Both the position numbers and the translations under genes were made by a program. DNA of 64,000 nucleotides, taken from contig NZ_CP069128.1 in the NCBI RefSeq assembly GCF_029637485.1, positions 310,001 to 374,000 on the forward strand, written 5' to 3'. Positions 6,872 through 53,395 of this stretch are shown here, piece by piece. This DNA comes from Sphingomonas sp. LHG3406-1. Its GTDB lineage: Bacteria > Pseudomonadota > Alphaproteobacteria > Sphingomonadales > Sphingomonadaceae. How positions within the stretch are numbered: the stretch's first letter is position 1; the number at the start of each line of letters is the position of its first letter. The notes below the pieces were generated by a model. That model was not told where the DNA came from and searched no databases. It saw nothing but the letters and a program-made list of their open reading frames with translations.

Positions 6872-6936
6872 GTTTCCACCTAAGCTGTTGAAAAACAAAG
6901 GCGCGGTAGGCGCCTGAACAGCTCGGGATGGGGTTT

Positions 6937-6975: not shown

Positions 6976-6988
6976 GGCTGGGCCGCGC

Positions 6989-12178: not shown

Positions 12179-12189
12179 GAGAAGCCACC

Positions 12190-23307: not shown

Positions 23308-23367
23308 ACGGGGATCTTTCTACCGCGGTAAATTGAAGACGACGTCACAGGATATTTTCGCGCGAAT

Positions 23368-25558: not shown

Positions 25559-26323
25559 CTATTTCAAGAGCATTCGATTTTCGTCCATCCGAGATTTTGC
25601 CTGGCGTACTTTTTCGCCAAGTGCGACCTTCGCCGAGAGGCGACGTTCCTTTCTAATAGCCGCGGCGAGCTGTGCGACTTCGCCCTCTAGCTGGGCGATT
25701 TCGCCAAGAGTTGTCCGCCAAGCTGCCTGCTCCGTCATAGAAGTGGCGAGCCGGAACGGTCGCTCCCCGGCGCGCGACACTTTCAGTGCTTCCACTCGCT
25801 CGATCAGCCCAGCATAGAGCGACGCGAGATCGCGCGAGGGGAGTCTCGGAAGAGCAAGCTCGGCAAGGAAACCCTCTTCGGCTTGGGTTAGCGGTCCAGT
25901 GTCGAAAAGGGCCGTAAGGACCGTGCGCCCGATCTCCCGTTCGGCGGAGCGCTTTGGCGCAAGACACAAGGTGGCCCCCATGTCGCTTCCTTCTTCAGAA
26001 TAGAGGAGTACGACAGGCTTAGGAATTGCGCGGTGGAGGATCTCGGCAAGGCGTGGCGATGCTGGCCCGCGCGTTCGGGCGGCGATAACGTTGATGGTGT
26101 CCACAACAAGTCCGTCTACCTCACCACTCGGTACTCCGGTCGCCGCCGGGTTGATGGCAGCAAGCCAATCGAGCCGCGCGAGCTTGCCGTCGATCAGCTT
26201 GCGATCTGCCCCGGTGGGGACAAAATCGGCGAGCGTGGATTTTGCAATGCGGCGCGATGGCGGGCCTGGCGGTAACGCGAGCGCGGCGGCGAGCGCCTCC
26301 AACGTGATGGGTTCGCCTTTCAC
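25559..26323 (-). CDS. DUF4391 domain-containing protein
   Basis: A 254-residue protein starting at GTG 26323, which overlaps the upstream helicase stop by GTGA. It shows the DUF4391 layout: an N-terminal KLIDGKLARLDWLAAINPA segment, a central KPVVLLYSEEG strand, a helix with LYAGLIERVEAL and a coiled-coil C-terminus (AQLEGEVAQLAAAIRKE, then KVRQAKSRMDENRM). Members of this family are usually encoded beside SNF2-type helicases and type III-like methyltransferases, as here, but no activity is established. The coupling indicates that it forms a functional pair with the helicase. Confidence 0.82.
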   Translation of the reverse strand: MKGEPITLEALAAALALPPGPPSRRIAKSTLADFVPTGADRKLIDGKLARLDWLAAINPAATGVPSGEVDGLVVDTINVIAARTRGPASPRLAEILHRAIPKPVVLLYSEEGSDMGATLCLAPKRSAEREIGRTVLTALFDTGPLTQAEEGFLAELALPRLPSRDLASLYAGLIERVEALKVSRAGERPFRLATSMTEQAAWRTTLGEIAQLEGEVAQLAAAIRKERRLSAKVALGEKVRQAKSRMDENRMLLK

Positions 26324-29300: not shown

Positions 29301-29433
29301 GATCAAGGCTGGTTTTAGCCGCAAGTAGCGCTAGGCCTTGAACCGATGCTGCGCTTACCCCCAAGGTTAATTCGGCACCGCCTGGGAGACGATCAAAAAC
29401 TCGGTCTGAGCCGAAGTTCGAGAGCAGTCGCAT
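26320..29433 (-). CDS. SNF2/RapA-type superfamily 2 helicase
   Basis: A 1037-residue protein. The ATPase core begins near residue 220: IADSVGLGKTFEAL (Walker A), VLVLAPKRLRDNW (motif Ia), VVIDESHNFRNRP (DEAH-type motif II), LMLSATPVNN (motif III). The second RecA lobe has LLVFTAFADTAAYL, IATDCISEGQNLQDCD and IVQRFGRIDRLGS (motifs IV-VI). The first 200 residues form an unassigned domain and the C-terminal 200 residues are also unassigned. Such proteins probably translocate on dsDNA. The gene follows the RecD2-like gene by 8 nt and overlaps the DUF4391 gene, so the three form one transcription unit. Confidence 0.9.
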   Translation of the reverse strand: MRLLSNFGSDRVFDRLPGGAELTLGVSAASVQGLALLAAKTSLDRLLVSPDLQLEFVPADRRRRNSLAMRGEAKQALSWAAGGLVRTADRPLRQSLLLSGAPISLALVGECGPTTSGLGLARGTTAGMVQAFENTDEIASIADWFEQLWREATETAGDVLTEQLEKVAASASPSAIYQRVLASLFEDMADEGSGDLPDRALGLEDSRIWQMLYRFQRDGALGAIAKLRQWGGCIIADSVGLGKTFEALAVIRYFELRNERVLVLAPKRLRDNWTLWTKNDIRNPLAGDRFAFDVLNHTDLSRDGGLSGDIDLNHINWGNYGLVVIDESHNFRNRPTGREGESRYDKLMRDIVKAGVRTRVLMLSATPVNNRLNDLKNQIAFATEGNDTALADAGIKSIAGTVRLAQAAFNKWQALPAERRTSQRLLDMLGFDYVRLLDLLTIARSRKHIERYYGIGETGRFPEKLPPDNRKSDVATDGSYPPISAINDEIRRLTLAAYAPLRYVLTHKREEYDRRYSQAAKDSVFRQLDREESLVGLMRVNLLKRMESSVHSFALTVGRQLTAVDNLIERIAAHDESVEAPAIEDLAEDDPLLDLLGVGKRVKVLLSDADLIAWRRDLEADRDRLARLLRQAHAVTPCRDAKLAELRRIISDKRANTINPGNRKLLVFTAFADTAAYLYENLAEEMDGITALVTGGGANRTSSPRLRTDLATILTAFAPRARGRPDSLADEPEIDLIIATDCISEGQNLQDCDCVVNYDIHWNPVRIVQRFGRIDRLGSINEQIRLVNFWPNMDLDAYIGLERTVSGRMKLLDVSATGEENIIEADPGNGMNDLEYRRRQLEAMQNQVIELEDLSQGVSITDLTLNDLRLDLAQLTPEERERIARLPFTAHSPVPEFEDLPAGAIFVLRGETPAALSALDAKDPLSPHALVHVRADGSIHLPHTAPKRILDAMRRFARTTPAESERLWARFDQMTKQGIRMVNWQTMLEAAMAGITGTAQDRAVDSLFATGAPQGLSGASGPDDWEVVAWFPILARQ

Positions 29434-29441
29434 GGTGGAAG

Positions 29442-32400
29442 CTACCTCGAAGCGGCAAAGAGCCGACCGGCAAGCTGATGGATTGCCCCGCTATCAATAC
29501 CCCCAGCCATCGTGTCCTCTGTGATGATTAGTCTGCCTGAAGGATTACTCTCGCTCCAAGGCGTAATCCCCTGAGCGTCGTACCATCCAAGCTTGCGCTC
29601 CCATCGTTGGACATACTCTACCTGACCCATCAGCCCGCAGTGCTCCCAGAACCAGGTTTCCTGGCCCGCTTCGACTGTAAAGTCGGGATAGCGCGTGACC
29701 CCCTCCGGGTTTGAGAGCGGCTTTTCGAAACTGTAGCGGATCTGCCCAGACTGCTCGAGACCGTAGAGCGTATCGGCAATGATGAGCTCTGACTTCGAGC
29801 TCACCAGATCGCCACGTTGCGTGCGGTGGATGAGTTTCTCGGCAAGCCAGCCGGTTCGCAAGCCGCCTTCACCCAAGAATTCCACCTGCTTCATGACAGG
29901 AGGTCCGAACAGGTTTGTGGTGCGCCGATCAGTCTCGGAGAAGAAGTCGGATCGAAGCCTTAGATAATGGCTGAATGGCCCCTGGTGCAGAACCCAGACG
30001 CGGTTCTTCTGACGGGTAAGCGCTGTGTATAGCATCTCCCGGCTAAGCAGGCGACTGTTCGCTGGCAGGACTAGGATTACGGAGCCGAACTCCGAACCCT
30101 GCGCCTTGTGGACGGTGACCGCATAAGCGAGCTCTAGAAACGGGCTTCCTTCCTCAGAGAAATCCCGATCTTTGAAGCTGTAAATGTCGGCTTTCTGCGA
30201 GGCGAACTCGACATTAGTGAACCGCAGCTTCCGACCGCTGCCAGACTCGCCAACCACCATCCCGACTTCGCCGTTCGCCAGGTATCCTGCGCGCTGGTTC
30301 TCCTCGCGGCTCCAGCGGTTGCGCTTATGGTTTCTGAGGCAAATGACCTTGTCGCCATAGGTGATCTGGTCACTTCCCCGCGGCTTGATGACCCGCCAGC
30401 CCCGGCCTGGGTTCCGAGCCCTTTCCAGCCGATCGGCACGAACCGTCTGTTTCAAATAGCGGTTAAGCTCGGCCGAGCCGCTGGCAAGATTGCGGTGCGC
30501 TGACAGGATCTGCCATTCCTCAGCTTTCGCGCCAGCGCCTTCATTGAAATATATATAGCCATTGCTGGGAGTGCCCCCGAGCGATTGTTCAAGCGCCGGC
30601 TCGAGATGCGCCGGATCGGCTTCCAACTCGTCGGCGAGAACTTGAAGCAGCTTTTCTCTAAGATCTGTCGGCGTTTCCCAGTCGACAAATCGCAGGCGGT
30701 CTGAGTTGGCCGGCGTGCCCGAGCCGGCGATGACCTCGTCCTCGCCAGGCTCCAAGGTCCGCCCGGAAAAGAGACTTGCGAGCTGAACGTCGGGAAGGGA
30801 AAGGGCAGAGACAAGCTCGCCGCCATCTTGCCGACGACTGACGCTGAGTTCGGCCACTCCGGCGCCGTTATGGGCGTCCTGCAGTTGTGCGATGATGTCG
30901 ACAAACGGGCGTCCGGCCCCAATTGGCGGCAATTGCTGCGGATCTCCCACCAGGATCAGTCGAGCAGTCTTAGGTAGTACGCTACACAGCGCCGCCAACT
31001 GGTCTTCGGTCAGCATGGAGCTCTCGTCGACCACACAGGTCGACACGCTAGCCGTCGAGCCCTCGTCCTGGACGAGGTATTTCCCAGTGTTGGGGTCGTA
31101 TCGGCTGTGCTCGAGCAAAAATTGCGCAAGGGTGCGTGCCTGCTCAGGTCGGCCGGTCTGCTGGCCGAGCCTCACCCGTGCTTTGCCCGTGGGTGCTAGC
31201 AGCTGGATGTCGCGGCCAACGACAGATGGCTGATTGAGCAAAATCTTGAGCAATGTCGTTTTGCCCGTGCCAGCAGGGCCGGTGAGCACGCCGATGCGGG
31301 AGCTCTCCAGCCTTTGCAGTGCCACCAACTTTTCGGCACGTGCCTGGCGCTCATCCTCGCTCGCAGCACTCCCTCTGAACTCTTGCGCAATGAGCGGAGT
31401 CCAGTCGATCTGAGGTGCTGACGGCGCCTTCGCTCTGTCTTCGACATGGGCACGGATAAGCGCACCGGCCGTCTTGTACCGGAGCAGCTGAGCATAGGTG
31501 ATATCCCCGTTCTTGGTGACATCGACCTCGTCAGCGAAGTCCTGCTTACAGATCTGGAGCGTGGTCGCGTCGAGAGAGACCTTCAGGGACAGTGGCGACC
31601 GGTCCACCTCCTCGCTAAGCTGACCGGCCGACAGAATCGTGTGCCCCGCCGATGCGGCGCGTTCCAGCGCATCGACAGCAATGGCTCGAAGCCGAAGTGC
31701 GTCCTCGGGCTCGTCCAGTTCGATGGCCAGACTATCGTGAAAGGGCGGGCGCTTACGATCCTTGTCGGTGGGGAACAGACTGCGGTCGATCGTCATCAGG
31801 CCAATCGGGTTGGCGGTGTTCCTCGACAGCTCAAACAGACGATAGGGATTGGCGAGAAATTCGTCTGCCTCGTAATCGCCATTGAAGATGGCATTCGCCT
31901 GGTCGCGACTCAGTTCGAAGCGCGACAGCAGCTGCATCAGCGCGTACCCGTCCGAATCGCTCTCTTTCAAATGCACAAAGCGTCGCTTCTGCATCGTCGT
32001 GATTCTGGGCGCGCCTTCTGGAGCCTCCCGGGTCCCTGCAAAGATCTCTTCTACGATGGGCCACGGGTCCGCATCCTCTTCGATGCTGCCGGCCAGGGCG
32101 TGGGCGAACAAGGTGCCATTGAAGTTCTCGTCGAAGCAGGAGAGGGCGCTACCCAGACCCGGCGCGATGCCATGCATGGTCCAGAGCTCGCTCAGCTCCC
32201 GATCAATCCACTCGAGATAATCCGCCCACGGACCATTAACGAGGACGGCACTCGTCGCCTCGATTGCTCTGCGGACCGACTGAAGGGCTGTGATCGCGGT
32301 GCCGTGGCTTACATGTTCGCTGGCATAGAGGAATTGCTCTAAGCCATCTTGCGGGACCTCGGCTACGAAATGCGAGAGCTCGAGATCCTGGGTTTTCGCG

Positions 32401-33173
32401 AGTTCCAAAAGCTGATGGTAAGGCAGAACAACGCCGCCAACCCAAGCGCCCTCAACCTGTTGATTGGGTCTTAAGCTATGCTGGAACGGCCGTTCCCAAA
32501 CCATTGACCGTATACGGCCCGCCGCGCTTCCTCCCTCGTAAGGATATTCGGTCAGGGGTCCTTTGGATGTGAGCTTGGCGACGGCGACGATCTGCCGGCC
32601 ACCACTGTCCGTGAGCGGCGTCTGCTTTGCATAGAAGAAGACGAGCGAGGTGTTTTCCTCAAGCTCCTTGCCGAAGCCCTCGAGCAGCGCCCGCTGATTG
32701 TCATGGTTTTGGACCCATGGAGTTTTGACGATCAGACTCGGCGCTTGCCCCTCCTGGGGCTCACGCATCTCTTCAGCGTCGAGACCGTGTTCTTCCGCAA
32801 TCTGCCAAGCAGACTCACGCAGCATCCAGCGGAATGGCGTTAAGGTACCACCATAGGCCGGAATGGGGACGACCTGCGGCAGGATGTGTGTGTGGTCGGG
32901 ACTGTACCTTGAATAGTCCAGCCTCGATGTCAGGGGCAGCTCGCGCGGTGATAGGAAGGCCCCGCGCTCTGCAAGACAAGGAGGCGGTGAGCCGAGCTCA
33001 CTGAAGCATTGTCCTGGATGAGCCGCCTCAAAGGCGTCGTCCCGGTTCGCGGCGTTTCGCTTGATTGCCAGGCACGCGGAGTTGGCTGGCGCGTCTAAGC
33101 AGACGCGGCCGTTCCAGCCATTATCATGCCACGGCGCCCGCACTGATACATGCCGAACGGCACCCCGCCCCAT
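29442..33173 (-). CDS. RecD2-like SF1 helicase with C-terminal PD-(D/E)XK nuclease
   Basis: A 1243-residue protein; ATG 33173 is preferred over the GTG 6 nt upstream because a GGGGG site precedes it. A long N-terminal region (to about residue 600) has no recognised motifs. The helicase core contains GVLTGPAGTGKTTLLK (about 628-643), CVVDESSMLTEDQL (Walker B, about 715), LVGDPQQLPPIGAGRPF, a SH3-like insertion region (GDKVICLRNHKRN), and AVTVHKAQGSEFGSV plus YTALTRQK (motifs V-VI). The tail has SKSELIIADTLY, RYPDFTVEAG and WEHCGLMG with KLGWYDAQGI, a Vsr/HNH-free PD-(D/E)XK fold. It is first in the minus-strand array and divergent from the sacsin-like gene. Confidence 0.87.
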   Translation of the reverse strand: MGRGAVRHVSVRAPWHDNGWNGRVCLDAPANSACLAIKRNAANRDDAFEAAHPGQCFSELGSPPPCLAERGAFLSPRELPLTSRLDYSRYSPDHTHILPQVVPIPAYGGTLTPFRWMLRESAWQIAEEHGLDAEEMREPQEGQAPSLIVKTPWVQNHDNQRALLEGFGKELEENTSLVFFYAKQTPLTDSGGRQIVAVAKLTSKGPLTEYPYEGGSAAGRIRSMVWERPFQHSLRPNQQVEGAWVGGVVLPYHQLLELAKTQDLELSHFVAEVPQDGLEQFLYASEHVSHGTAITALQSVRRAIEATSAVLVNGPWADYLEWIDRELSELWTMHGIAPGLGSALSCFDENFNGTLFAHALAGSIEEDADPWPIVEEIFAGTREAPEGAPRITTMQKRRFVHLKESDSDGYALMQLLSRFELSRDQANAIFNGDYEADEFLANPYRLFELSRNTANPIGLMTIDRSLFPTDKDRKRPPFHDSLAIELDEPEDALRLRAIAVDALERAASAGHTILSAGQLSEEVDRSPLSLKVSLDATTLQICKQDFADEVDVTKNGDITYAQLLRYKTAGALIRAHVEDRAKAPSAPQIDWTPLIAQEFRGSAASEDERQARAEKLVALQRLESSRIGVLTGPAGTGKTTLLKILLNQPSVVGRDIQLLAPTGKARVRLGQQTGRPEQARTLAQFLLEHSRYDPNTGKYLVQDEGSTASVSTCVVDESSMLTEDQLAALCSVLPKTARLILVGDPQQLPPIGAGRPFVDIIAQLQDAHNGAGVAELSVSRRQDGGELVSALSLPDVQLASLFSGRTLEPGEDEVIAGSGTPANSDRLRFVDWETPTDLREKLLQVLADELEADPAHLEPALEQSLGGTPSNGYIYFNEGAGAKAEEWQILSAHRNLASGSAELNRYLKQTVRADRLERARNPGRGWRVIKPRGSDQITYGDKVICLRNHKRNRWSREENQRAGYLANGEVGMVVGESGSGRKLRFTNVEFASQKADIYSFKDRDFSEEGSPFLELAYAVTVHKAQGSEFGSVILVLPANSRLLSREMLYTALTRQKNRVWVLHQGPFSHYLRLRSDFFSETDRRTTNLFGPPVMKQVEFLGEGGLRTGWLAEKLIHRTQRGDLVSSKSELIIADTLYGLEQSGQIRYSFEKPLSNPEGVTRYPDFTVEAGQETWFWEHCGLMGQVEYVQRWERKLGWYDAQGITPWSESNPSGRLIITEDTMAGGIDSGAIHQLAGRLFAASR

Positions 33174-33310
33174 ACGCACCCCCTGATCAGCAACTCGAAA
33201 GGCGTGACGTTCGGCAAATCACGCTTAACCGGTGGCGAGGCTAACCTTTGCTAATATGCTTCACAAGGCTGATTCTCTGCGACATGATGCGCTGAGCCGG
33301 GGGAGTATTC
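33174..33310. promoter_or_regulatory. Divergent promoter region of the two large arrays
   Basis: Only 137 nt separate the minus-strand RecD2-like start from the plus-strand sacsin-like start, so both promoters must lie here. A TAATAT at 33252-33257 is a plausible -10 box for the plus strand; a matching -35 at standard spacing is not convincing. The plus-strand gene has a GGGGGAG ribosome site before ATG 33311. Shared control of both arrays is inferred. Confidence 0.4.
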
Positions 33311-36300
33311 ATGGCGACGTTGGTTGAGGAGCCTAGCTCCAACGAGCGAGAGGGCGTCTCTTCTCTTGCTGACTTTGTGGAGCGCGAGTGCGCCGCTCGC
33401 CTTGGCGCCTATGAGCGGCAGCCTCGCGACACCAATGAGCATTATGAGACCGAAATCGAAGTGTTGTCGGGGGGCTACGCCTATCGACAGCTCTACGAAC
33501 TTGTTCAGAACGGGGCAGACGCTATCCTCGAGGCCAAAGAAGACGTTGGCCGCATCTATGTGAGACTTGAACAGGATCGCTTGGTTGCTGCCAATAGTGG
33601 CGCAGCGCTGGACTCCGATGGAGTAGTCGCCCTTCTCAATGCCCGCAGTTCTTCAAAAAGAGCAGGGCAGATCGGCCGATTCGGCATCGGCTTCAAATCT
33701 CTGCTTAAGCTTGGGGGTACCGTTGACCTGATCAGCAGGTCCATTGGGCTTCGGTTTGATCCGGAATGGTGTCGCTCGAAGATCCGCGCTCACCTCGGCC
33801 TCTCTGAGGACTCCCGTGCGCCCGGGATGCGTCTCGCGCAGGTTCTTGATCCAGAGGGGGCCACTAGCCCGTTAGCCGATCGCGACCTCGGCTGGGCGAC
33901 CACCGTCGTCACTGCTCAGATCGCTAATGCTAGTGATCGGCAACGTCTGGTCGAGGAGATGGCTCAGTTCCCGGCTGAGTTTGTTCTCTTCTTGCGTCCC
34001 GATATCGAGCTTACGTTGGAGGTCGTGGGAGGGCCGACCCGAAGAATATCCAAGCGTCACGACGGCGACGTTCTCATTGTTGACGATGGGACCGTGCAGA
34101 CCCGTTGGCGCCTATTCGAGCGCGAAGTCGTGGTCGATGACGCCGAAGCAAAGGCCGATGCCCTTCATCTCCAAGCCCGTGAGAAGGTGCCATTGTCCTG
34201 GGCGGCGCCGATCGGCGGGCGCGAAGCTGCGGGTACCTTTTGGGCCTTCTTTCCGACGCGCACCCCAACTCTGGCCTCAGGCATCCTCAACGCTCCTTGG
34301 AAGCTCAACAGCGACCGAACCAACGTCATCCCGGGCGCTTACAACTGGTTCCTGATGGAGGCGGCAGCCGAACTAATCGCCGACAACATAGCGGCGCTTG
34401 CAACTGAAGCCGATCCCGGAGCGCCCATCTCGGCTTTGCCGAGAAAGGTTGACCGCCAAGATGAAGTCGCGGCGCCTCTCGTCGAGTCTCTCTGGACCCG
34501 ACTCGTTGAAAGTGAGCTCGTCGCGAACGCGGCCGGCGAGATGAAGGACGCCCATTCGCTATTTCGGCATCCGCTTGACGAAGAGGAACTCATCGCCCGC
34601 TGGGTTTCACTCGCCGATGATGCGGTTCGAGCGAAATCAGTTCACGCCACCTGCCAATCGGGCAAGCTTCGTTCCAGCCGGCTGGAGGCCCTGGCCCGCG
34701 AGGCTTTGGATCGAGTGAAGCCCCAGCGCGAGGCCCTGATCCGCTTCTCCATGGCTGAGTGGATCGAGTTCGTCGCGTCCGAGGAAGCTGGTCACGCTGC
34801 CGAGCTTGTCTTGTTTCTGCGGGACGTTCGTAAGGCCCGGAACGGAGCGCTGTATGACCTTCGAAGAGCGAAGTTCATTCCCTCTGCTCGGCACGGCCTC
34901 ATTTCTCCGGCAGACGCAATCATCTGTCCGCCTGATCGCGCGCCAACGGGCAAGTTCGCGGTCGCGACCGACTTGCTTGAAAAGCCAGACGTACGCTCAG
35001 TTCTAGTGAGTTTGCTTGATGTGCCCGAGATGGGCGATGAGCTCTGGGACACAGTTCTCTGGGAGTCCTACGACCGGGCACAAACACTTGGCCGTGAGGG
35101 TGCTTGGGCGACCTTCTGGGCCAACTTCGAAGAAGCGCCACAAGATCGCGTAGAGGCATTTTTCGAAGACTACGGTCCTGACGACTTCTACTTCCGTTCG
35201 ATGGCCGGATCTTTCTCACCGCGTGAGGAGCTCGTCCTCATCGATCGCGAGCTGAAGCAGGAGGTCAATCCCGGCATCATTCTCGATCGCAGCTATCACG
35301 CCGGGCATTGGGACCGCATTCCAGATGAGTACAAGGACACATTCGGCCCTAGCGATACAGCCGAAGTAGGCACGTGGGATGGACGCGGCTGGGAGCAGAT
35401 GCGGCCGTACCTTAGAACCATCCAAGACATGGGCCGGCGTAGAATGCCCTATGGCCCCCGCGAGTATCTGTTAGGCGTCCTCCGCGAAGACGCGATCGAG
35501 ATGCCGTTGTCCTGGCGGTTGCTACCCGAGCTACCAAGTCCCCTAGCGGTCAAGCACACGGACCATTTGCTGACATCGATGGCGAGTAACCTGCTTTACA
35601 GCAGGGTCCGTAATCCGGAGGGGCCTCACTGTTACAAGACAATCGTGTTTGGTCACACGACACGGCCGGACTCTTATGCCCGGTACACGGCCGCCCACCC
35701 CTTTGTGTACTGGCTGCATAGATTCGGCTGGGTAGAGCTTGGCGAGCGAACGGTACCTCTTGGTGCGTTCACAGCGCCAGCTCGCCAGGCGCTTCGGACG
35801 CTAGGTGGTGCCGCAAGCTTAGACCTCAACTCGTACTTCGACTCTCTTGAGGAACAAACGGATCTGAGATTCCCGTTTGCTGCGCCAGCTTCTGCAGATC
35901 TTACTAGCGAAGTTTGGGCCGGCATCTTCGAGCTTGCCTGGGAGACCACTGATAACTTCTCCTCGTTAACTCCTGTCTGGGAGATTGCGGCCGAGGCAGG
36001 CCAGATCCCGGATCTTGTCCCCACCAGTGACGGTCCGGTGCCAATCACGAAAATTTACGTCACAGATCGGCCGGGTTCATCAAGTGAGACCGATAACGGC
36101 CGGGTTATTTTGCTCAGCGAGGCTGCTGCGGCCGCCTGGCACAATGCTGGTGCCCAGCTCCTAGCTGACCATACCGAGCTTACCTACGAGGAGAAACTTG
36201 GCGAGCCGCTTCGTCTTCAGGCGCTCTTTCCTGAGCTTACTCCGATTCTGAAGACTCGTTTGGCTCGCCGGCTTGATGTTCTCTGGGTTAAAGGGCTGAC

Positions 36301-38068
36301 CGAAAGGTCGGGTCCGCAAACCCGTCGGCCGATGATCGCATTCCATCAAGGCGGGCCGCTGCTTATCGAACGCGAGATCTTTGAAGCCGAGAGCTGGACC
36401 GGCCGGACCAAACAGCTCCTCGAATTTCTGCATACCCATGGGTTCATCCAGGAGAAGCCCGAAGAAGCGATGAGCCAGCTCGTCGGGCAACGGGTGGTGG
36501 AAGCGCGCGCCAGGGTGCGCGCGGGTGAAACTATCGAGAAAAGGCTGCTTCTCGCCGTAGGTGGATCACGCCGAGCACTTTTTGCGCAGCTAAGTGAAGC
36601 CACGAGAGAAGCCATCCCTAGGAAGCTGTCGGACGAGGCGTTAGCTGCCCTCACGCTGGCAGTGCATGGCCCGACCACGCTTTCCAACCTGCGCGACGTC
36701 CTGGAAGAAGAGGGACTTGCACCTCCAGCGCGCTGGGGAGGGGACCCGGCCCAAAGGTTTGTTCTCGAGCTCGGGTTCCCGGCCGAATTTGCCGCAAGCG
36801 CGAACCTACGACGAACGGCAGAGTGGATCGTGAATGGACCGATCCATTTGCCTCCACTGCACGACTATCAGGAAGGCATACTTCAGGGGCTCCAATCAAT
36901 CTTCGAAAGTGGGCAGGGGCGCCGCCGAGCGGTGGTGAGCTTGCCGACAGGCGGCGGTAAAACTCGGGTTGCTGCAGAGGCAATCGTTCAGCTGATCCTC
37001 AATGGGGAGGGGAAGCGAACGGTCCTGTGGGTCGCCCAGACGGACGAGTTATGCGAACAAGCGGTGCAGTGTTTCCGCCAGCTCTGGGTGAACGTTGGCT
37101 CGCCAGAGGAGGACTTGCGGATCGTTCGCTTGTGGGGCGGTCAGAGTAACCCAGCACCGCCAGAAGCGAACGAACCCGTAGTGGTCGTCGCAAGCATTCA
37201 GACCCTGAACGCCCGGTTGGACGTGGAGCAACTAGAGTGGCTGGCGCAACCAGGGGTCGTGGTGATCGACGAATGCCATCACGCTATCGCGCCGAGCTAT
37301 TCCTCGCTTCTTCGCTGGCTCGACGTTCAGACGGGCACGGAAACCGAGCGCCTGGAGGAGCCGCCGGTCATCGGCTTAAGTGCAACGCCTTGGCGCGGTT
37401 ATGATGATGATGAATCGCGGCGCCTTGCTGCGCGCTTCGATCAGCGCTGGCTGCCCAAAGATCAGCACCAACTTCATCATGACCTGTTGCAACGCAAGGT
37501 GCTGGCTAAGCTCACCTACCATCCAATTCGCTACGACAAGGTTGTTCAGCTGAGCGAGGCGGAGATCCGGCACCTCGACCAGTATAAAGAGCTTCCAGAG
37601 TCCTTTGTTGAGCGCATCGGTGCGGACCCAGACCGAAACGACAAAATCATCGAGTGCGTCTTGAGTTCGGGCGCCTCCTCAATTCTGCTGTTCGCTAATT
37701 CGGTAAAGCACGCCCAGTATCTTGCTGCTCGCCTCCATCTCGCCGGCTGCCCTGCAGCGGCGGTAAGTGGGGAAACGGACCGGCTTGCCCGTCAGCACTT
37801 CATTCGTCGCTTCAAGTCGCAGGAGCTCAAGGTGCTCTGCAATCATAGCGTGCTGACGACCGGTTTTGACGCACCTAAAGCCGACATGATCCTCATCTCG
37901 CGACCGGTACTGAGCCCGGTACGGTACATGCAGATGGTGGGGCGGGGTCTTCGTGGACCGAAGAATGGTGGTACCGATCTCTGCAAGATCGTGACCGTCG
38001 AGGACAATATTCTGACCTACCAGGATCGGCTCGCCTATCACTTCTGCCGCCGTTTCTTCGAAGTCTAA
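33311..38068 (+). CDS. Sacsin-type GHKL ATPase fused to a DEAD/DEAH (SF2) helicase
   Basis: A 1585-residue protein. Near residues 55-125 it has a histidine-kinase/Hsp90-like ATPase fold: N-box YRQLYELVQNGADAI, then ANSGAALDSDGV, then RFGIGFKSLLKL, in the style of sacsin N-terminal domains. A central region of over 1000 residues has no motif I recognise. From about residue 1180 comes a full SF2 helicase: HDYQEGILQGL, VSLPTGGGKTRVA (Walker A), VVIDECHHAIAPS (DECH), IGLSATPWRG, VLCNHSVLTTGFDAP and YMQMVGRGLRGPK. This fusion of a chaperone-like ATPase with a restriction-type motor is typical of defence islands. It opens the plus-strand array, followed 11 nt later by the next gene. Confidence 0.88.
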   Translation: MATLVEEPSSNEREGVSSLADFVERECAARLGAYERQPRDTNEHYETEIEVLSGGYAYRQLYELVQNGADAILEAKEDVGRIYVRLEQDRLVAANSGAALDSDGVVALLNARSSSKRAGQIGRFGIGFKSLLKLGGTVDLISRSIGLRFDPEWCRSKIRAHLGLSEDSRAPGMRLAQVLDPEGATSPLADRDLGWATTVVTAQIANASDRQRLVEEMAQFPAEFVLFLRPDIELTLEVVGGPTRRISKRHDGDVLIVDDGTVQTRWRLFEREVVVDDAEAKADALHLQAREKVPLSWAAPIGGREAAGTFWAFFPTRTPTLASGILNAPWKLNSDRTNVIPGAYNWFLMEAAAELIADNIAALATEADPGAPISALPRKVDRQDEVAAPLVESLWTRLVESELVANAAGEMKDAHSLFRHPLDEEELIARWVSLADDAVRAKSVHATCQSGKLRSSRLEALAREALDRVKPQREALIRFSMAEWIEFVASEEAGHAAELVLFLRDVRKARNGALYDLRRAKFIPSARHGLISPADAIICPPDRAPTGKFAVATDLLEKPDVRSVLVSLLDVPEMGDELWDTVLWESYDRAQTLGREGAWATFWANFEEAPQDRVEAFFEDYGPDDFYFRSMAGSFSPREELVLIDRELKQEVNPGIILDRSYHAGHWDRIPDEYKDTFGPSDTAEVGTWDGRGWEQMRPYLRTIQDMGRRRMPYGPREYLLGVLREDAIEMPLSWRLLPELPSPLAVKHTDHLLTSMASNLLYSRVRNPEGPHCYKTIVFGHTTRPDSYARYTAAHPFVYWLHRFGWVELGERTVPLGAFTAPARQALRTLGGAASLDLNSYFDSLEEQTDLRFPFAAPASADLTSEVWAGIFELAWETTDNFSSLTPVWEIAAEAGQIPDLVPTSDGPVPITKIYVTDRPGSSSETDNGRVILLSEAAAAAWHNAGAQLLADHTELTYEEKLGEPLRLQALFPELTPILKTRLARRLDVLWVKGLTERSGPQTRRPMIAFHQGGPLLIEREIFEAESWTGRTKQLLEFLHTHGFIQEKPEEAMSQLVGQRVVEARARVRAGETIEKRLLLAVGGSRRALFAQLSEATREAIPRKLSDEALAALTLAVHGPTTLSNLRDVLEEEGLAPPARWGGDPAQRFVLELGFPAEFAASANLRRTAEWIVNGPIHLPPLHDYQEGILQGLQSIFESGQGRRRAVVSLPTGGGKTRVAAEAIVQLILNGEGKRTVLWVAQTDELCEQAVQCFRQLWVNVGSPEEDLRIVRLWGGQSNPAPPEANEPVVVVASIQTLNARLDVEQLEWLAQPGVVVIDECHHAIAPSYSSLLRWLDVQTGTETERLEEPPVIGLSATPWRGYDDDESRRLAARFDQRWLPKDQHQLHHDLLQRKVLAKLTYHPIRYDKVVQLSEAEIRHLDQYKELPESFVERIGADPDRNDKIIECVLSSGASSILLFANSVKHAQYLAARLHLAGCPAAAVSGETDRLARQHFIRRFKSQELKVLCNHSVLTTGFDAPKADMILISRPVLSPVRYMQMVGRGLRGPKNGGTDLCKIVTVEDNILTYQDRLAYHFCRRFFEV

Positions 38069-38079
38069 AGGGCGAGCCA

Positions 38080-38598
38080 ATGCCAATTGAGTCACTCAAA
38101 GACTCCCAGATCAGCCACGTTATTCGCCGCTATCGAGAAAGGGGCCTCTCCGAAGGCGGAACCTTCACGCTTGCCGAGCTTCTCATGGAGCAGCGCCGAC
38201 GACTGAAGTCGGATCTGCCCACTGTTGGGCTCGCAGCCAAGATTGTCGAACTGGCTCGATCGTCGAATGATGGCCTGGTCACTTACAAAGAGCTCTGGGA
38301 AGCCTTCCGGCCCGGTGAGCAGTGGGTGGGCAATAAGTCTCAGCAAATCATGGGCAACGCTCTTGCTCGGGTGGTTGAATATTGTGTTCGGCACAATCTG
38401 CCAGTGCTCACTGTGTTGGTGGTGCAGTCAGGTTCAAGGAAGCTTGATCCCAAGGCGGTTGCGAACATCTACAATGATGCCCGTGAGCTAGGCGTTGACA
38501 CTGGCCCAGACATGGAGGCTTTCATCGCGCGCGAGCGGGTTCGGGCGCGTGAGGTCAGCTCGGAGAAGTTGCCCTCCGAGCCCGATGTTGAGTCCTGA
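38080..38598 (+). CDS. Hypothetical 172-aa protein between two helicase genes
   Basis: A soluble, charged protein in the tight plus-strand array (11 nt after the sacsin-like gene, 3 nt before the NERD helicase gene). It begins MPIESLKDSQISHVIRRYRE, has a middle part with KIVELARSSNDGLVTYKELW and a NLPVLTVLVVQSGSRKL strand region, and ends in an acidic helix. The middle part resembles a small winged-helix-like or endonuclease-associated fold often found beside restriction-type genes, but no family is assigned with confidence. The spacing says it is made with its neighbours and is probably a subunit of the same complex. Confidence 0.65.
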   Translation: MPIESLKDSQISHVIRRYRERGLSEGGTFTLAELLMEQRRRLKSDLPTVGLAAKIVELARSSNDGLVTYKELWEAFRPGEQWVGNKSQQIMGNALARVVEYCVRHNLPVLTVLVVQSGSRKLDPKAVANIYNDARELGVDTGPDMEAFIARERVRAREVSSEKLPSEPDVES

Positions 38599-38601
38599 AA
38601 C

Positions 38602-40263
38602 GTGGGCCAGCTAGTCCCCGCGGCCCTACCCCAGGCGGCGTTCGTTCCAGGCCTTGAGCGGGAGCTCGAGACGCTTGAACAGTTGAAGCGTCGTCTACCC
38701 GCCACTCTTTCAGTCTTCCATGGTGTGCACTGGAGTCGCGCCTGGACGTATGGGACGGCGTTCGGTGAGGCTGACTTCATCGTCGTCAACGGGGCAGGGC
38801 GCTGCCTGGTTATTGAGCAGAAAACTGGCTCGCTCGAGGAGGGGAAGGACGGGCTTCAGAAGCGATATGATGGAAAGGCGAAGAGTGTTGGTTCGCAGCT
38901 GCATCGAACCCTCGATGCCCTACGAGACAAGTTCAAGGCGCAGAGCGGCCATCAGATCGAGCTCGATTACCTACTCTACTTGCCTGATTACCGGGTCCGG
39001 GACCTCTGCGGTGCAGGGCTCGATCAGAACCGGATTGTCGACGGCCGCAATGCAGTTCGGCTGTGCGAGCGCATCATCGAGCTGCTCGGTGAGACCGATG
39101 CGACACCGCATGGCGGACGTGTCCTCCGCTTCTTTGAGCAGTCGCTTGATCTCGTTCCAGACATTCACTCCCGGGTCGGACTGTCGGAGCGCTGCTATAC
39201 GCGCGCAGTCGGCGGGCTCGCCGACATCGTCGGCGCCATTAGCGCTAGGCCGTTGCGCCTGGCCGTCCGGGGCACCGCTGGTTGCGGCAAGTCCCTAGTC
39301 GCGATCCGGGCTTTTCGAGCGGCTGAGGCGGCCGGCAAGCGGCCACTCCTTCTGTGCTTCAATCGCGATCTGAAGGAAAAGATGAAGGTCGCTGCCGGTC
39401 AGACCGGCGGTGTTGTCGAGACCTTTCACGGTGCCATCGACCGAGTTCTAAAGGACACAGGTCGTCCGCTGGCACATGAAGCCGGCGGTGTGGACTGGAA
39501 CCGAGCGGTTGATCAGGTGCTCGAAGGCGAGATCCCCGACAGCTGGCGGTTTGATACGGTCATCGTCGACGAAGGGCAGGACTTCACGCCAGCCTGGCGC
39601 GAGATGTTGGACTTGTTCGGTGCGGACACGGGCGACTGCTTGTGGCTCGACGATCCCGATCAGGCGATCCAATACGGAACGAGCCCCGACAGCGAAGCTT
39701 GGCCGCGGGGCGGTTGGACGGGCTTTCGAGCAAAGTCCAATTTCCGAACGCCGGCTAGTATCGCTCGTTTTTTGCAACGCCTTTTGCCTGGATTTGAATT
39801 CTTAAACGCCAACCCCCTTCCAGGCCTGGGCGTTGGGATCACCGAGGTACCGGGCAAGAGCGAAGTCTCGGCCGCGGTCGGGCGCGTTTCGAGCGAGCTG
39901 ATGAAGAAGGGCTTTGCACGGGAGCAGATTGTCGCTCTCTCACTGAGGGGCCAGCAATCGGCGACCCTCGGTCAGTGCGAGCGCGCGGGCAGCCAAACCA
40001 TCGCCCGCTTCACGGGCAATTACGATATGTTTGGCAATCAGCTTTGGACCAATGGGCACCTGAGGTTCGATACTATCCGCCGGTACAAGGGGCAGCAAGA
40101 CGCGGCGGTGATTGTCACAGATGTGGAAATGCCGGACGAGGAGGAGCGGCGTGGAGAATGGGAGCGCCTGCTCTTCGCTGCGCTAACTCGAGCGACCGAA
40201 CGCCTGGAATTAGTAGTCACGAGGGGGTCTAAAGCCTCCCGCTTACTGCACGATGCGTGGTGA
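38602..40263 (+). CDS. NERD-domain SF1 (UvrD-like) helicase
   Basis: A 553-residue protein starting at GTG 38602. The N-terminal 190 residues form a NERD-like nuclease-related domain: AFGEADFIVVNGAGRCLVIEQ with a following KTGS gives the Asp and Glu-x-Lys pattern. The C-terminal part is a UvrD/Rep-type motor with AVRGTAGCGKSLVAI (Walker A, about residue 222), VIVDEGQDFTPAW (Walker B), LDDPDQAIQYG, a KSNFRTPASI segment, IRRYKGQQDAAVIV (motif V) and FAALTRATERLELV (motif VI). NERD-helicase fusions are found in phage-defence loci (for example Nhi-type nuclease-helicases), but architecture alone does not assign this one to a named system. Confidence 0.85.
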   Translation: MGQLVPAALPQAAFVPGLERELETLEQLKRRLPATLSVFHGVHWSRAWTYGTAFGEADFIVVNGAGRCLVIEQKTGSLEEGKDGLQKRYDGKAKSVGSQLHRTLDALRDKFKAQSGHQIELDYLLYLPDYRVRDLCGAGLDQNRIVDGRNAVRLCERIIELLGETDATPHGGRVLRFFEQSLDLVPDIHSRVGLSERCYTRAVGGLADIVGAISARPLRLAVRGTAGCGKSLVAIRAFRAAEAAGKRPLLLCFNRDLKEKMKVAAGQTGGVVETFHGAIDRVLKDTGRPLAHEAGGVDWNRAVDQVLEGEIPDSWRFDTVIVDEGQDFTPAWREMLDLFGADTGDCLWLDDPDQAIQYGTSPDSEAWPRGGWTGFRAKSNFRTPASIARFLQRLLPGFEFLNANPLPGLGVGITEVPGKSEVSAAVGRVSSELMKKGFAREQIVALSLRGQQSATLGQCERAGSQTIARFTGNYDMFGNQLWTNGHLRFDTIRRYKGQQDAAVIVTDVEMPDEEERRGEWERLLFAALTRATERLELVVTRGSKASRLLHDAW

Positions 40264-40332
40264 CCTGAAAGTCCAGCAAATCGACGAACGGCCGATGGCG
40301 CTTCAGCTTCGCGCCAAATGAGGAGAGCGGAG

Positions 40333-41040
40333 ATGCCAGCCCCAGTAGACCCTGCCCACATTCCTGAGCAGTGGAACGTCGACCGGAAGATGTCGCCGCT
40401 CGAGTGGGCTCGGGATTGGCTGCCGGCGTGGTTCCGCTCGCTGAAGGTGCTTGACGAGGAGCTTGCTCGCTCAAACCCCAGACTTGCTACAACACTGGAG
40501 CAAGGGGTGTCTCACGTGCGGTACAATGCCTTCCGTACCTATCGGATGCCATGGGAGCCCTTCATCGGGGGTCCGTCGCGTCGCCCACACGTTGCCTTTT
40601 TCAGAGAAGAAGGAGCCGAGCCGGCCCAAAGTCTTCAGGAGACCGGACCTTTCAAAGATCGCGGTGCCTCAAAGGTTGTTCTTCAGTACTTTGCGGAGGG
40701 CGACCTCCCCTCCGCTGCTGCTGCTCTTACGGTACTTAAATTGTGGCCGGCTGTGGTGGTTAGCCACCAACAGCGTGAACGCCTACGCGAGAGATCTGAG
40801 CCACCACAACTTGCGAGACCCCTGGCATTCTTTCACGATGTTCCGATCGTCCGGTTTGATGGCGAGAGGCTTGATCCCTTGACCTACTCACGTGACGATC
40901 TCCTGCGGGATCTTACGGCGGTTCCGGGCATGGAGGGGATCTTGCGCTCACCTCTGGTCCAGCCTCCGTTAGATTTTGAAGCTCGGCTCGCGGCAGCTAT
41001 TGCACCCCGAGAGCCACGGCCGCCGCGTCGCGCTGCATAG
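40333..41040 (+). CDS. Hypothetical 235-aa protein ending the sacsin/NERD array
   Basis: ATG 40333 was chosen because AGGAG lies 8 nt upstream; an in-frame ATG at 40318 lacks a ribosome site. The protein is soluble, Trp- and Pro-rich at the N-terminus (SPLEWARDWLPAWFRSLKVL), with a central FEGDLP-like helix pair and a basic tail (PREPRPPRRAA). No family recognised. The gene is 69 nt after the NERD helicase gene on the same strand and 186 nt before the DUF2779 gene, so it could be the last gene of the helicase array or a linker to the next unit. Confidence 0.6.
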   Translation: MPAPVDPAHIPEQWNVDRKMSPLEWARDWLPAWFRSLKVLDEELARSNPRLATTLEQGVSHVRYNAFRTYRMPWEPFIGGPSRRPHVAFFREEGAEPAQSLQETGPFKDRGASKVVLQYFAEGDLPSAAAALTVLKLWPAVVVSHQQRERLRERSEPPQLARPLAFFHDVPIVRFDGERLDPLTYSRDDLLRDLTAVPGMEGILRSPLVQPPLDFEARLAAAIAPREPRPPRRAA

Positions 41041-41226
41041 CTGGCTGACTTCTGGGCCAATGCCCCGCGACAAATTTGAGCCCGATTCTCGCTCGGCAAA
41101 GCGGGCAGAGCCCTAAGCAATGACCTATTCTGTCGTACCCTTCGGCCAGACCCTTTCGATCAGACGGACAGGTCGCCCGGACATTGGAACAGGGCTAATG
41201 TACCTGAGTAGGGGGATAAGAGATTG

Positions 41227-42732
41227 ATGCCCAACTTCGGGCTCTCCAAGAGCAAGGTCGCCGCCTTCGAGCAATGCCCCAAGCGGCTCTGGCTGCAGGT
41301 GCATAAGCCCGAAGAAGGGGTGATCGATACCGCCATGCAGGCCCGCTTCGATATCGGCCATGCTGTCGGCGAGCTCGCCTGCGAAGCTTACCCTAACGGC
41401 ATCATGATCGAAGCCGAGCCGGATTTGAGTGCCGCTATCACCCTCACCCAGGAGCTACTCTCCAGCGGAATTAGGCGACCGCTGTTCGAAGCCACCTTCC
41501 TGCACGAACAAGTGCTGGTACGCGTTGACATCATGTACCCGGCGGAAGGCGGCGGTTGGCACGTCGCCGAGGTGAAGAGCTCCGCGTCAGCCAAAGAATA
41601 TCAACTGAGCGATCTCGCGACGCAGGTCTGGGTGATGCAAGGCTGCGGCGTGGAAGTCGCCTCAGCCAGCATCCGTCACATCGACTCATCTTTCGTCTAC
41701 CAGGGCGATGAGAATTATGCGGGGCTGCTGAAGGATGCACCCGCAGATGACATCATTGCCCCTCTGCTTCCGACCAGATCCGAATTGGCGCGAGAGGCTA
41801 TCAGCACGCTGGCCGGAGAAGAGCCCGCCAAGGAGCCGGGCACCCACTGCAACAGCCCTTTCTCGTGCCAGTTTCAGGCTTACTGCAGCCGTGGACGCGC
41901 GCAGCCTACTTGGCCGATTTCCTTACTCCCGAACACGGGTGGGCGGCTTGCCGAGGCTTTTCACAAGCTGGGTATCGTCGAGCTGCTCGACGTGCCCGCG
42001 TCCGAGCTCAAGAGTGAGCTGCACCGGTTGATCCAAAAGGTAACCGCAGAAGGGTCGCCTTTCCACGACTGCGAGAAGGCGAGGCGCGCGACAGAACACT
42101 GGCCGCGGCCTTTGTCCTACTTGGACTTCGAAACGATCGCCTTTGCGATACCCCGCTGGATTGACACGAGACCGTTTGAGAATGTGCCGTTTCAGTTCTC
42201 ACTGCACATCGATCACGACGGTGTGGTCGAGCACCATTGCTTCCTTGATCTAAGCGGAGATGACCCGCGGCGCGCGTGCGCGGAGGCGCTCATTGCCATG
42301 CTGCCGCCTCAAGGAGCGATCGTGGCCTACAATGCGAGCTTCGAGCGGCGCTGTATCCGCCAGCTTGCGGAGACCTTTCCGGACCTCAGCCAGGCGCTAT
42401 GTGGGCTCGAGGCGCGTGTCGTCGACCTCCTGCCGGTCGCGCGTGCCTGCTGGTATCATCCAGAGCAGCGCGGGAGCTGGTCAATCAAGCACGTGCTGCC
42501 CACGCTCGTACCCGAGCTCAGCTACAAGTTGCTCGAGATCGGCGATGGAGGAGCTGCCCAAAGCGCTTACATCGAAGCGGTCGCTCCTGAAACAAGCGCG
42601 CAGCGGAGACAGGAACTTGCTTCGGCGCTCACGGCCTACTGCAGCCTAGATACCGAAGGCCTGAGGCAGGTCTTCCATCGGCTCGTGGACCCGAATGAAA
42701 GCGAAGCTGGAGGGGAGGGGACGCATGCGTAA
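41227..42732 (+). CDS. DUF2779 protein: Cas4-like Fe-S nuclease fused to a DEDD-type exonuclease domain
   Basis: A 501-residue protein; ATG 41227 gives the expected start MPNFGLSKSKVAAFEQC. The N-terminal Cas4-like module has C17, D101 (VRVDIM), E115-x-K117 (VAEVKSS) and the cluster C208, C214, C220. The C-terminal DUF2779 module contains SYLDFETIAF (D300, E302), IVAYNASFERRCI and a late CSLDTEGLRQVF, matching DnaQ/DEDD exonuclease motifs. Together it could resect DNA or RNA ends with two nuclease centres. Its N-terminal half is paralogous to the 17557-18309 protein. The stop overlaps the next gene by 8 nt. Confidence 0.85.
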   Translation: MPNFGLSKSKVAAFEQCPKRLWLQVHKPEEGVIDTAMQARFDIGHAVGELACEAYPNGIMIEAEPDLSAAITLTQELLSSGIRRPLFEATFLHEQVLVRVDIMYPAEGGGWHVAEVKSSASAKEYQLSDLATQVWVMQGCGVEVASASIRHIDSSFVYQGDENYAGLLKDAPADDIIAPLLPTRSELAREAISTLAGEEPAKEPGTHCNSPFSCQFQAYCSRGRAQPTWPISLLPNTGGRLAEAFHKLGIVELLDVPASELKSELHRLIQKVTAEGSPFHDCEKARRATEHWPRPLSYLDFETIAFAIPRWIDTRPFENVPFQFSLHIDHDGVVEHHCFLDLSGDDPRRACAEALIAMLPPQGAIVAYNASFERRCIRQLAETFPDLSQALCGLEARVVDLLPVARACWYHPEQRGSWSIKHVLPTLVPELSYKLLEIGDGGAAQSAYIEAVAPETSAQRRQELASALTAYCSLDTEGLRQVFHRLVDPNESEAGGEGTHA

Positions 42733-43351: not shown

Positions 43352-43822
43352 TTAACTGCGGCACCGAATAAGGCGTCCGCTCGGATCATATTTGGGAAGG
43401 CGAATTGCGAGTCCGCTCTTAAGCATTGCGCAGCTAAGGTCTGTGCCCCCGATCGAGCACCACGCCGCAACACGATTGTAGCTAGCGCCAGCCGGCTTAC
43501 AGCTCACATTGCGACCTTCGATCATCGACGCCAGAACAGACTTTGCGCGGTAAGGATCGCCGGGAGTGCAGGATCGGCCCGTCCGGCAAGCACCAGGCAT
43601 CTCCGGCGTGTCGATCGCAGACAGGCGAATGCGGGTCCCGTCTGCGCACCGAAAGGTGTCTCCGTCATGCACATAAGCAACGCGGCAATTGAATTCAGAC
43701 GAGCTACCGGATCTCCGCACTATGAGCTCAGAAGCACCGGGCGGAGCTCGTACACCAAAGTCCGTTGGGGCAAGCACAAGCACAACGAGCAAGATCATCG
43801 GCACAGCCTTGGTTTGCAGCAT
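43352..43822 (-). CDS. Exported thermonuclease (SNase)-family protein
   Basis: ATG 43822 gives a 156-residue protein with a signal peptide (a Lys followed by AVPMILLVVLVLAP); the frame extends upstream to 43888 without an obvious ribosome site. The SNase core is visible in RVAYVHDGDTFRCADGTRIRLSAIDTPE, read here as HDGDTF and RIRLSAIDTPE, which provide the metal-binding Asp and catalytic Arg. A later ASYNRVAAWC segment would provide the second Arg. Four or more cysteines suggest disulfides in the periplasm. It is the usual length for bacterial SNase-like proteins and lies convergent to the M15-like gene, ending 1 nt from its stop. Confidence 0.78.
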   Translation of the reverse strand: MLQTKAVPMILLVVLVLAPTDFGVRAPPGASELIVRRSGSSSEFNCRVAYVHDGDTFRCADGTRIRLSAIDTPEMPGACRTGRSCTPGDPYRAKSVLASMIEGRNVSCKPAGASYNRVAAWCSIGGTDLSCAMLKSGLAIRLPKYDPSGRLIRCRS

Positions 43823-43887
43823 GAGTGGGAACGGTGGCGATCTCTTAAGCTCGTTGCAACGGTCTGGTGGCAGCTCTTCGTAAAACA

Positions 43888-44392
43888 TGCGCCGCCACTC
43901 TCATCTCCGCTCCCACCAGCGAAACTCTCGGCCAAGCCTCAAGGAGCCCGTCGGGCTCGCGAGGCAAACTCGCCTTCAGAGCTCCTAGCAGGCGTACTGC
44001 TTGTTTGTTATATCGGCTGGCAGGCTACACCGCAGCTCTCTGCTTCATGGCAGCGGATAAGTTTTTCGCCGGCCGACAATCAAGCTCGGCAAAGCTCGGT
44101 CTATTATCCCGACTGTAACGCAGCACGCGCCGCGGGCGTCGCTCCCATCTATGCGGGGCAGCCCGGCTATCGTGAGGAGATGGACGGAGACTTGGACGGA
44201 ATTGCCTGCGAACCATATCGTTACACTGGGTTATCAATGACCCTGGGCTTGGAAGTGCTGGAAACGCTCTGCGAGCCGATCCTGATCAGGGTGGTCCTTG
44301 GTTCGGCTCGGCAGTCTGATCTTCTCGCCGTGCTTAAGCTTAACTCCTTGCTCGAACATTGGGCCATCGTTGATGGACAGCAGTGCGTCTGA
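43888..44392 (+). pseudogene. Broken excalibur-domain membrane protein gene
   Basis: The stretch encoding YYPDCNAARAAG, then PIYAGQPGY and DLDGIACEPYR (about 44100-44220) is an excalibur calcium-binding motif (DxDxDGxxCE-like), preceded by a hydrophobic segment LLAGVLLVCYIGW. In that frame there is no ATG, GTG or TTG downstream of 43830. The plausible start ATG 43888 (MRRHSHLRSHQRN, basic) is in another frame, which stops at 43989, just where the hydrophobic segment begins. The excalibur frame also lacks the usual stop after the motif and runs 54 codons into the HNH gene on the other strand. A frameshift near 43950-43985 and loss of the original end are inferred. Confidence 0.45.
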
Positions 44393-53319: not shown

Positions 53320-53395
53320 TTTATTGATGAAGCGGCAACGGCGACGGATAAGCACCTCCTCTTGGCTGGAGATGCGAGAAGAACATCGACGTACG

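Follow-up and report, generated by a model that had tools for sequence, protein, structure and literature searches.

Sacsin-type GHKL ATPases occur in anti-phage proteins such as Tiamat, a single-gene system, and we know of no explanation for what these ATPases gate in such proteins. Better known GHKL ATPases, including Hsp90, MutL and topoisomerase VI, undergo ATP-driven closure of their N-terminal parts. The report on VcSduA (Shedu type I-D, paraMORC) hypothesizes that a GHKL ATPase controls the nuclease effector of an anti-phage protein (PMC12137116). Here, we analyzed a 64,000-nucleotide (nt) stretch of the genome of Sphingomonas sp. LHG3406-1 (hereafter the window) and focus on one of its genes, GHKLhel, which encodes a sacsin-type GHKL ATPase fused through a long middle region to a superfamily 2 (SF2) helicase. 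Our preferred reading, which we hold tentatively and judge somewhat short of probable, is that GHKLhel is a Tiamat-like variant that acts against phages or other mobile elements as a clamp that is gated by ATP and drives a DNA motor, perhaps together with S68, a superfamily 1 (SF1) helicase gene that stands divergently beside it. No description of a sacsin-type GHKL/SF2 fusion, or of an S68-GHKL pair, was found in the open-license literature searched.

GHKLhel joins a sacsin-type GHKL ATPase to an SF2 helicase

The gene and its parts are placed in the window as follows (aa, amino acids):
33311-38068, plus strand: GHKLhel, fusion of sacsin-type GHKL ATPase, middle region and SF2 helicase, 1585 aa
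33338-34570, plus strand: sacsin-type GHKL ATPase domain, residues 10-420 (NF047352, TmtA model, profile match, motif invariance)
34598-36790, plus strand: middle region, residues 430-1160 (homologue coverage, invariant columns, AlphaFold2)
36806-38062, plus strand: SF2 helicase nearest to RadD/YejH, residues 1166-1584 (profiles, match to 6jde, motifs)

An initial annotation had described a 1585-aa fusion of an Hsp90-like ATPase and an SF2 motor, and this fusion proved to be real. The NCBIfam model for the sacsin N-terminal ATP-binding-like domain (NF047352) scored 62.1 bits (cut-off 50), and the Pfam families ResIII and Helicase_C scored 79.4 bits (cut-off 22.5) and 50.4 bits (cut-off 23.5), respectively, while Pfam SACS stayed below its cut-off (14.5 vs 32.8 bits). 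Both domains are confirmed, their scores being far above chance. The N-box ELVQNGADA (residues 63-71) and the G2 box IGRFGIGFKSLL (residues 121-132) are present in the ATPase, as are PTGGGKT, DECHH, SATP, TGFDAP and QMVGRGLRG in the helicase. When the protein was aligned with 34 of its 50 listed homologues (35 sequences), the residues of the N-box (ELVQN.ADA) and G2 box (IGRFG.GFKSLL) were invariant, together with those of helicase motifs I (LPTG.GKTRV), II (DE.H), III (GLSATP), V (TGFDAP) and VI (YMQMVGRG.RG). Given this invariance of the motif residues, both engines look active.

The middle region, initially put at 1000 residues, spans ~730 residues between the cut points used for profiles (430-1160). 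Its invariant columns contain no D, E or K, arguing against a nuclease site in this region, and no recognized nuclease was found anywhere in GHKLhel. The initial annotation had pointed to structure prediction as a way into this region and into the small proteins encoded downstream, and models were obtained for the middle and for the downstream protein p172 (see below). Residues 395-1185 were modeled by AlphaFold2 as mostly helical with small beta insertions (mean per-residue confidence score, pLDDT, 85.0; predicted template-modeling score, pTM, 0.64), and a PDB search with this model gave no significant structural match.

Residues 380-1180 were used as the query of a homologue search (E ≤ 0.001; 7991 candidates scored), which found 50 proteins, all of them carrying a DEAD/ResIII helicase annotation. 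In 42 of the 44 strongest homologues (E ≤ 2.8e-41), 99-100% of the query region was aligned. Judged from these alignments, the family is coherent and its full-length architecture conserved. It is also rare and patchy in whole genomes, which were surveyed in overlapping family, order and class samples (thresholds 1e-50 or 1e-100; at most two candidates scored per genome). Full-length GHKLhel occurred in 2 of 397 genomes of the family sample (the window's own and G084, with a fragment as third match in G246), in 3 of 396 of the order sample (the window's own, G537 and G547, with a fourth match that was helicase-only) and, among the 385 genomes of the class sample, only in the window's own, alongside a fragment in G983 and three helicase-only matches. 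The piece in G246 (L064:9094-9627) is 87% identical to residues 1241-1361 and lies near a contig end, being a broken or cut-off copy. None of the 207 plasmid records with any match and none of the 1354 phage records covered 80% of GHKLhel. Among the plasmid and phage matches listed, nearly all fall on the helicase part. Matches to the first 1180 residues came from four plasmid records, none over 80%.

Comparison of GHKLhel with known systems

GHKLhel was compared with the defense models of a 2023 copy of PADLOC. No full-length model match was found among the best 25 of 29, in keeping with the initial statement that no named system with this combination of parts was known. Its likeness to Tiamat lies in the sacsin-type GHKL N-terminus, where one of the TmtA models (PDLC03964, 03966, 03968, 03972 and others) reached 147.4 bits over residues 17-412 (PDLC03964), and in the very large size of both proteins. 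However, the best TmtA model was matched over 7-407 of 1538, so that GHKLhel is not a full-length TmtA, and its C-terminal SF2 part matches PbeA and type I/IV restriction-motor models instead. VcSduA carries a DUF4263 nuclease, whereas GHKLhel has an SF2 motor and a sacsin-type GHKL domain (NF047352), with no DUF4263 among its Pfam matches up to E 0.1. The closest helicase family is RadD/YejH: the RadD model scored 111.6 bits over residues 1183-1551, far under its equivalog cut-off of 720, and the helicase part matched PDB entry 6jde (RadD) with an E value of 3.3e-28. RadD is not known to have a GHKL part. An unnamed fusion on a Hymenobacter swuensis plasmid (locus L192) combines a sacsin-type GHKL ATPase with a helicase near S68, as in the window, but its motor is SF1 and not SF2.

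Defense genes lie near GHKLhel at every other locus read

Readable surroundings were available outside the window for four full-length relatives (L061 in genome G084, L015 in G537, L016 in G547 and the IMG/VR contig L019). The neighborhood counts given here and below leave out the closest relatives of GHKLhel (P0039, P0040) and of p172 (P0002-P0006). Defense genes were found within ~2 kb of GHKLhel at all four loci, and their kinds differ. In G537, GHKLhel follows BREX PglZ and BrxL, with the conjugation genes TraG and TraH on its other side. In G547, it stands between a CBASS-type nucleotidyltransferase (CD-NTase) and a UvrD-DrmA-DrmB-NERD helicase series, and on L019 it lies ~2 kb after type I methyltransferase and restriction endonuclease genes. 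In G084, which belongs to a different genus, GHKLhel is divergent from an S68 gene whose product is 66% identical to that of the window. These neighborhoods make a role in defense likely for GHKLhel, and this part of the initial proposal of a candidate undescribed defense system stands, while its four-gene composition does not (see below).

The longest open reading frames (ORFs) of S68 and GHKLhel in G084 are 11 bp apart, with the GHKLhel relative starting 40 residues before the window-equivalent start; counted from the start that corresponds to the window's, the gap would come to ~131 bp and so match that of the window. The outer neighbors in G084 are mostly unannotated, apart from one HATPase_c protein after S68. 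This 678-aa protein (L067:557-2593), on the side of S68 away from GHKLhel, carries a different GHKL domain (HATPase_c, 28.8 bits) and had no PADLOC match.

S68 and sacsin-type GHKL genes occur together above the controls used

Two minus-strand genes that bear on the finding had been left out of the initial annotation:
29442-33179, minus strand: S68, RecD-like SF1 helicase, PADLOC candidate PDC-S68, 1245 aa
33180-33310: divergent intergenic region between S68 (minus) and GHKLhel (plus), 131 bp
26320-29433, minus strand: SNF2 helicase downstream of S68 after an 8-nt gap (C3a139, 355.5 bits)

The PDC-S68 profile, whose code we take to denote a single-gene candidate, matched S68 over its full length (1373.9 bits, 4-1219 of 1221). 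The adjoining SNF2 helicase matched DrmD (139.8 bits, far under the cut-off of 610) and DrmA (69.4 bits) as a helicase only, and no match to DISARM DrmB was found when 19 proteins of the window were compared with PADLOC (best 25 matches for four of them); this helicase may instead go with the type III restriction genes that come next. S68 was found in 4 of the 397 family-sample genomes (the window's own, G084, G066 and G276), and both full-length GHKLhel carriers of that sample have S68 next door in divergent orientation.

Twelve S68 loci outside the window had readable flanks; three cut off at a contig end (L116, L117, L118) and two partial plasmid matches (H28, H29) were left out. Four of the twelve have a sacsin-type GHKL gene within the flanks that were fetched, as S68 does in the window, which sets these loci apart from a single-gene S68. 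In L061 (G084) this gene is GHKLhel itself, on a Sphingomonas changnyeongensis plasmid (L075) it is a protein with Pfam SACS at 55 bits, and on a viral contig (L112) it scores 48.9 bits for SACS and matches TmtA model PDLC03972 over 6-806 of 1302. The fourth, on the Hymenobacter swuensis plasmid (L192:25111-30132), has SACS at its N-terminus (54.6 bits) and an SF1 helicase (AAA_11/AAA_12) at its C-terminus, and lies four genes downstream of S68. The cluster on this Bacteroidota plasmid comprises a DrmD-like SNF2 helicase, S68 (27% identity), a type III-like methyltransferase, a DEAD/DEAH helicase and the sacsin-GHKL-helicase fusion, and by its gene content repeats, in another phylum, much of what the window holds. 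With SF2 in GHKLhel and SF1 in the Hymenobacter fusion, the ATPase-plus-motor design exists with two kinds of motor.

The controls were distant RecD-like genes in viral contigs. Using a leave-one-out profile, sacsin-type GHKL genes were found at 4/12 S68 loci vs 0/73 controls (Fisher test, p = 2.4e-4), and using a GHKLhel-based profile at 4/12 vs 0/112 (p = 5e-5). SNF2/DrmD-like helicases were likewise commoner near S68 (4/12, at L085, L075, L192 and L112, vs 2/73; p = 0.003).

Several observations weigh against S68 as the partner of GHKLhel. Eight of the twelve other S68 loci have no sacsin-type GHKL gene nearby, and none was seen at the three cut-off loci either. At least two of the four other full-length GHKLhel loci are without S68, as G537 and G547 gave only short ATPase matches; on L019, the upstream side that is visible carries no S68. 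Phage contigs, not defense islands, served as controls, and their stretches are shorter (mean ~15 kb vs ~23 kb), so part of the enrichment may reflect island clustering and length; in addition, L075 passes the threshold narrowly (3.6e-6 vs a limit of 1e-5), and the high score of L061 comes from having the window's own GHKLhel among the profile sequences. Moreover, Pfam and PDB sequence searches with the C-terminal region of S68 gave no nuclease family. A PD-(D/E)XK nuclease there, prompted by invariant residues, was rejected after these searches returned only one designed DARPin.

The genes downstream of GHKLhel are not a conserved set at the loci read

Three ORFs follow GHKLhel on the same strand:
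38080-38598, plus strand: p172, 172 aa, 11 nt after GHKLhel
38602-40263, plus strand: NERDhel, NERD nuclease and SF1 helicase, 553 aa, GTG start, 3 nt after p172
40318-41040, plus strand: p240, 240 aa, or 235 aa from the second ATG (40333-41040)

The initial annotation had joined these with GHKLhel into a four-gene cassette. All four ORFs are present and the 11- and 3-nt spacings are borne out by their coordinates; p240 follows NERDhel at the loosest spacing of the four genes (54 nt, or 69 nt at the second ATG). The 235 aa first given for the fourth gene fit a start at position 40333, an ATG whose ribosome-binding sequence looks the better by eye and which gives the length of database entry P0089, while the longest ORF encodes 240 aa. 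Codon usage of p240 is gene-like but weaker than that of its neighbors (0.129 vs 0.19-0.22 bits per codon), with the other five frames negative, and the database search found no homologue of p240 other than itself.

The p172 family has 38 listed members including p172, of which 36 were aligned, and the sequences of both p172 and NERDhel are conserved and intact-looking. AlphaFold2 modeled p172 with a pLDDT of 92.6. The idea that p172 is an alkyltransferase-like (MGMT/ATL) winged-helix protein found no significant match: a fold search gave several weak MGMT/ATL hits with unrelated ones ranking higher, and a profile-profile comparison was negative. The PDB sequence search returned only S100-A16 (E 0.09), and the best matches in a viral structure library were unnamed or uncharacterized proteins, including phage proteins (best E 8.5e-3, template-modeling scores 0.51/0.65; none at E 0.001). 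A search of 50,697 phage records at E 0.01 yielded no relative of p172, and a scan of genome contigs gave two distant p172 loci. Relatives of p172 lie near a staphylococcal-nuclease-like gene at two loci, adjacent in L003 (9183-10525) and ~3 kb away in L060 (622-4744).

The initial identification of the third gene as a NERD-SF1 helicase agrees with its Pfam scores for NERD (25.5 bits, cut-off 22.1) and UvrD_C_2 (29.4 bits, cut-off 27.4), and the NERD residues EAD...ExK are kept in an alignment with five relatives. With its NERD and SF1 helicase parts, NERDhel resembles Nhi, C3a187 (NERD + UvrD) and GajB. Its best PADLOC match was to C3a187 (50.2 bits, best stretch 215-362 of 559); the match to Nhi scored 15.7 bits over 437-457 of 470, not full-length, and that to GajB was partial. 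A NERDhel match was present in two of seven genomes tested, the window's own and G547. Two distant relatives follow DrmA/DrmB-like genes (L090 by annotation and G547 by PADLOC).

Conservation of the gene set had been proposed beforehand as the test of the cassette, and on this small sample the four genes are not a conserved set. At the four other GHKLhel loci, the visible flanks hold no p172 (on L019 the downstream side extends for only ~200 bp), and a NERD helicase occurs at one (G547), where it is distant (24%) and follows UvrD-DrmA-DrmB. Conversely, GHKLhel was found at none of six readable p172 loci (L002, L003, L006, L059, L060 and L068), NERDhel was absent from the five of these compared by BLAST (all but L002), and none of five loci of NERDhel relatives carries p172. 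The cassette as a conserved unit was therefore rejected on the loci seen, since p172, NERDhel and p240 are not co-conserved with GHKLhel; more likely, these three genes are separate cargo. S68 is a better candidate partner of GHKLhel than the cassette genes are.

Alternative explanations

GHKLhel might also be a self-sufficient single-gene defense like Tiamat, with S68 and its other neighbors being separate systems that share defense islands, an explanation that we consider possible but lean against. The neighbors of GHKLhel differ at every locus read (S68, BREX, CBASS/DISARM, type I restriction-modification), S68 often occurs without GHKLhel, PADLOC lists TmtA and PDC-S68 apart, and Tiamat itself is a single-gene system. 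Against this independence, the divergent S68-GHKLhel layout is seen in two genera, and sacsin-type GHKL genes are commoner near S68 than in the controls.

It is unlikely that, within this branch of the family, the operon from GHKLhel to p240 works as a single system, even though its genes share a strand with gaps of 11, 3 and 54-69 nt, p172 and NERDhel look conserved and intact, and the counts leave out the contexts of the closest relatives named above. Outside the window, p172 was not seen at the four other GHKLhel loci (one cut off downstream) and stood without GHKLhel at 6/6 of its own, NERDhel appeared distantly at one, and p240 had no homologues found. Finally, the nearness of the SF2 part to the repair helicase RadD, together with the position of L015 beside TraH and TraG, would fit a DNA-repair or replication factor of a mobile island with no part in defense. 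We regard this as very improbable, as defense genes stand near every other full-length GHKLhel locus read and the gene is rare and patchy, being full-length in 2/397 family-sample genomes including the window's own.

GHKLhel lies in a probable integrated defense island

The window sits in a 2.85-Mb single-contig genome. Further features are:
6797-6871: tRNA-Gln gene, followed by an integrase gene
6962-8719: integrase gene (Phage_integrase)
11114-13814, plus strand: PD-(D/E)XK nuclease (PDDEXK_13/REase-ARP), ArdC-like anti-restriction gene and PP2C phosphatase in a row
18347-25407, minus strand: type III restriction system, one Res and two tandem Mod genes
41224-42732: DUF2779 protein, directly after p240
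43352-43888: staphylococcal-nuclease-like gene, ~5 kb after p172
50202-53484, minus strand: 737-aa AAA protein with IetA-like C-terminal ATPase (108.8 bits) and an adjoining ORF without known domains

From the tRNA-Gln/integrase point onward, G+C falls from ~0.67 to 0.54-0.64, and the tRNA gene, integrase and G+C drop (6797-8719) together mark the probable left end of an integrated island. The same stretch carries the ArdC-like gene, restriction-type nucleases, the type III restriction system, S68, GHKLhel and further genes matching defense models, and looks like an integrated defense island. A second copy of the tRNA-Gln end (the last 33 nt of the gene region) was not found in the genome when up to 3 mismatches were allowed, so no attachment-site pair is shown. 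The AAA/IetA-like gene and its neighbor ORF are a possible further defense pair.

The two tandem Mod genes are 99% identical over their final 300 nt but only 74% alike over 300 nt close to the start, a pattern resembling the outcome of recombination between the two copies. A relative of the DUF2779 protein (34%) lies at L079:8091-11683 on an Azospirillum plasmid, divergent to a NERDhel relative, and a 73-nt stretch near the start of the DUF2779 gene resembles one in the Cas4-like ORF 17557-18309 (73%).

Proposed working of GHKLhel

In the reading that we prefer, the sacsin-type GHKL ATPase would close as an ATP-gated clamp. By closing, with ATP, on invading DNA or on a complex of DNA with phage protein, it would act through the long helical middle on the RadD-like SF2 motor and license this motor to unwind or strip phage DNA. 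As GHKLhel has no recognized nuclease, destruction would have to come from another protein, for which the divergent RecD-like S68 would be the likeliest partner here; taken with the neighborhoods, the missing nuclease suggests that S68 may help or complete the attack. The clamp working is proposed by analogy with the known closure of GHKL ATPases and with the hypothesis put forward for VcSduA (PMC12137116). GHKLhel would work as a GHKL-gated defense of the Tiamat/VcSduA kind, with a motor replacing other C-terminal parts.

A more novel possibility than a Tiamat-like variant is an undescribed anti-phage system built from S68 and a sacsin-type GHKL protein, with a clamp of the Hsp90/MutL type gating two or three DNA motors. 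The GHKL protein is itself joined to an SF2 or SF1 motor in some cases, and in some a DrmD-like SNF2 helicase stands with the pair. Two phyla would then be represented by divergent versions of this system, one in the window and one on the Hymenobacter plasmid, a proposal that we put forward as conceivable though rather doubtful. Overall, the covalent joining of the ATPase to a DNA motor, SF2 here and SF1 in Hymenobacter, suggests that the step gated in these proteins may be DNA translocation or unwinding, and it brings in S68, itself an unexplained entry of the defense catalogue, as a candidate partner.

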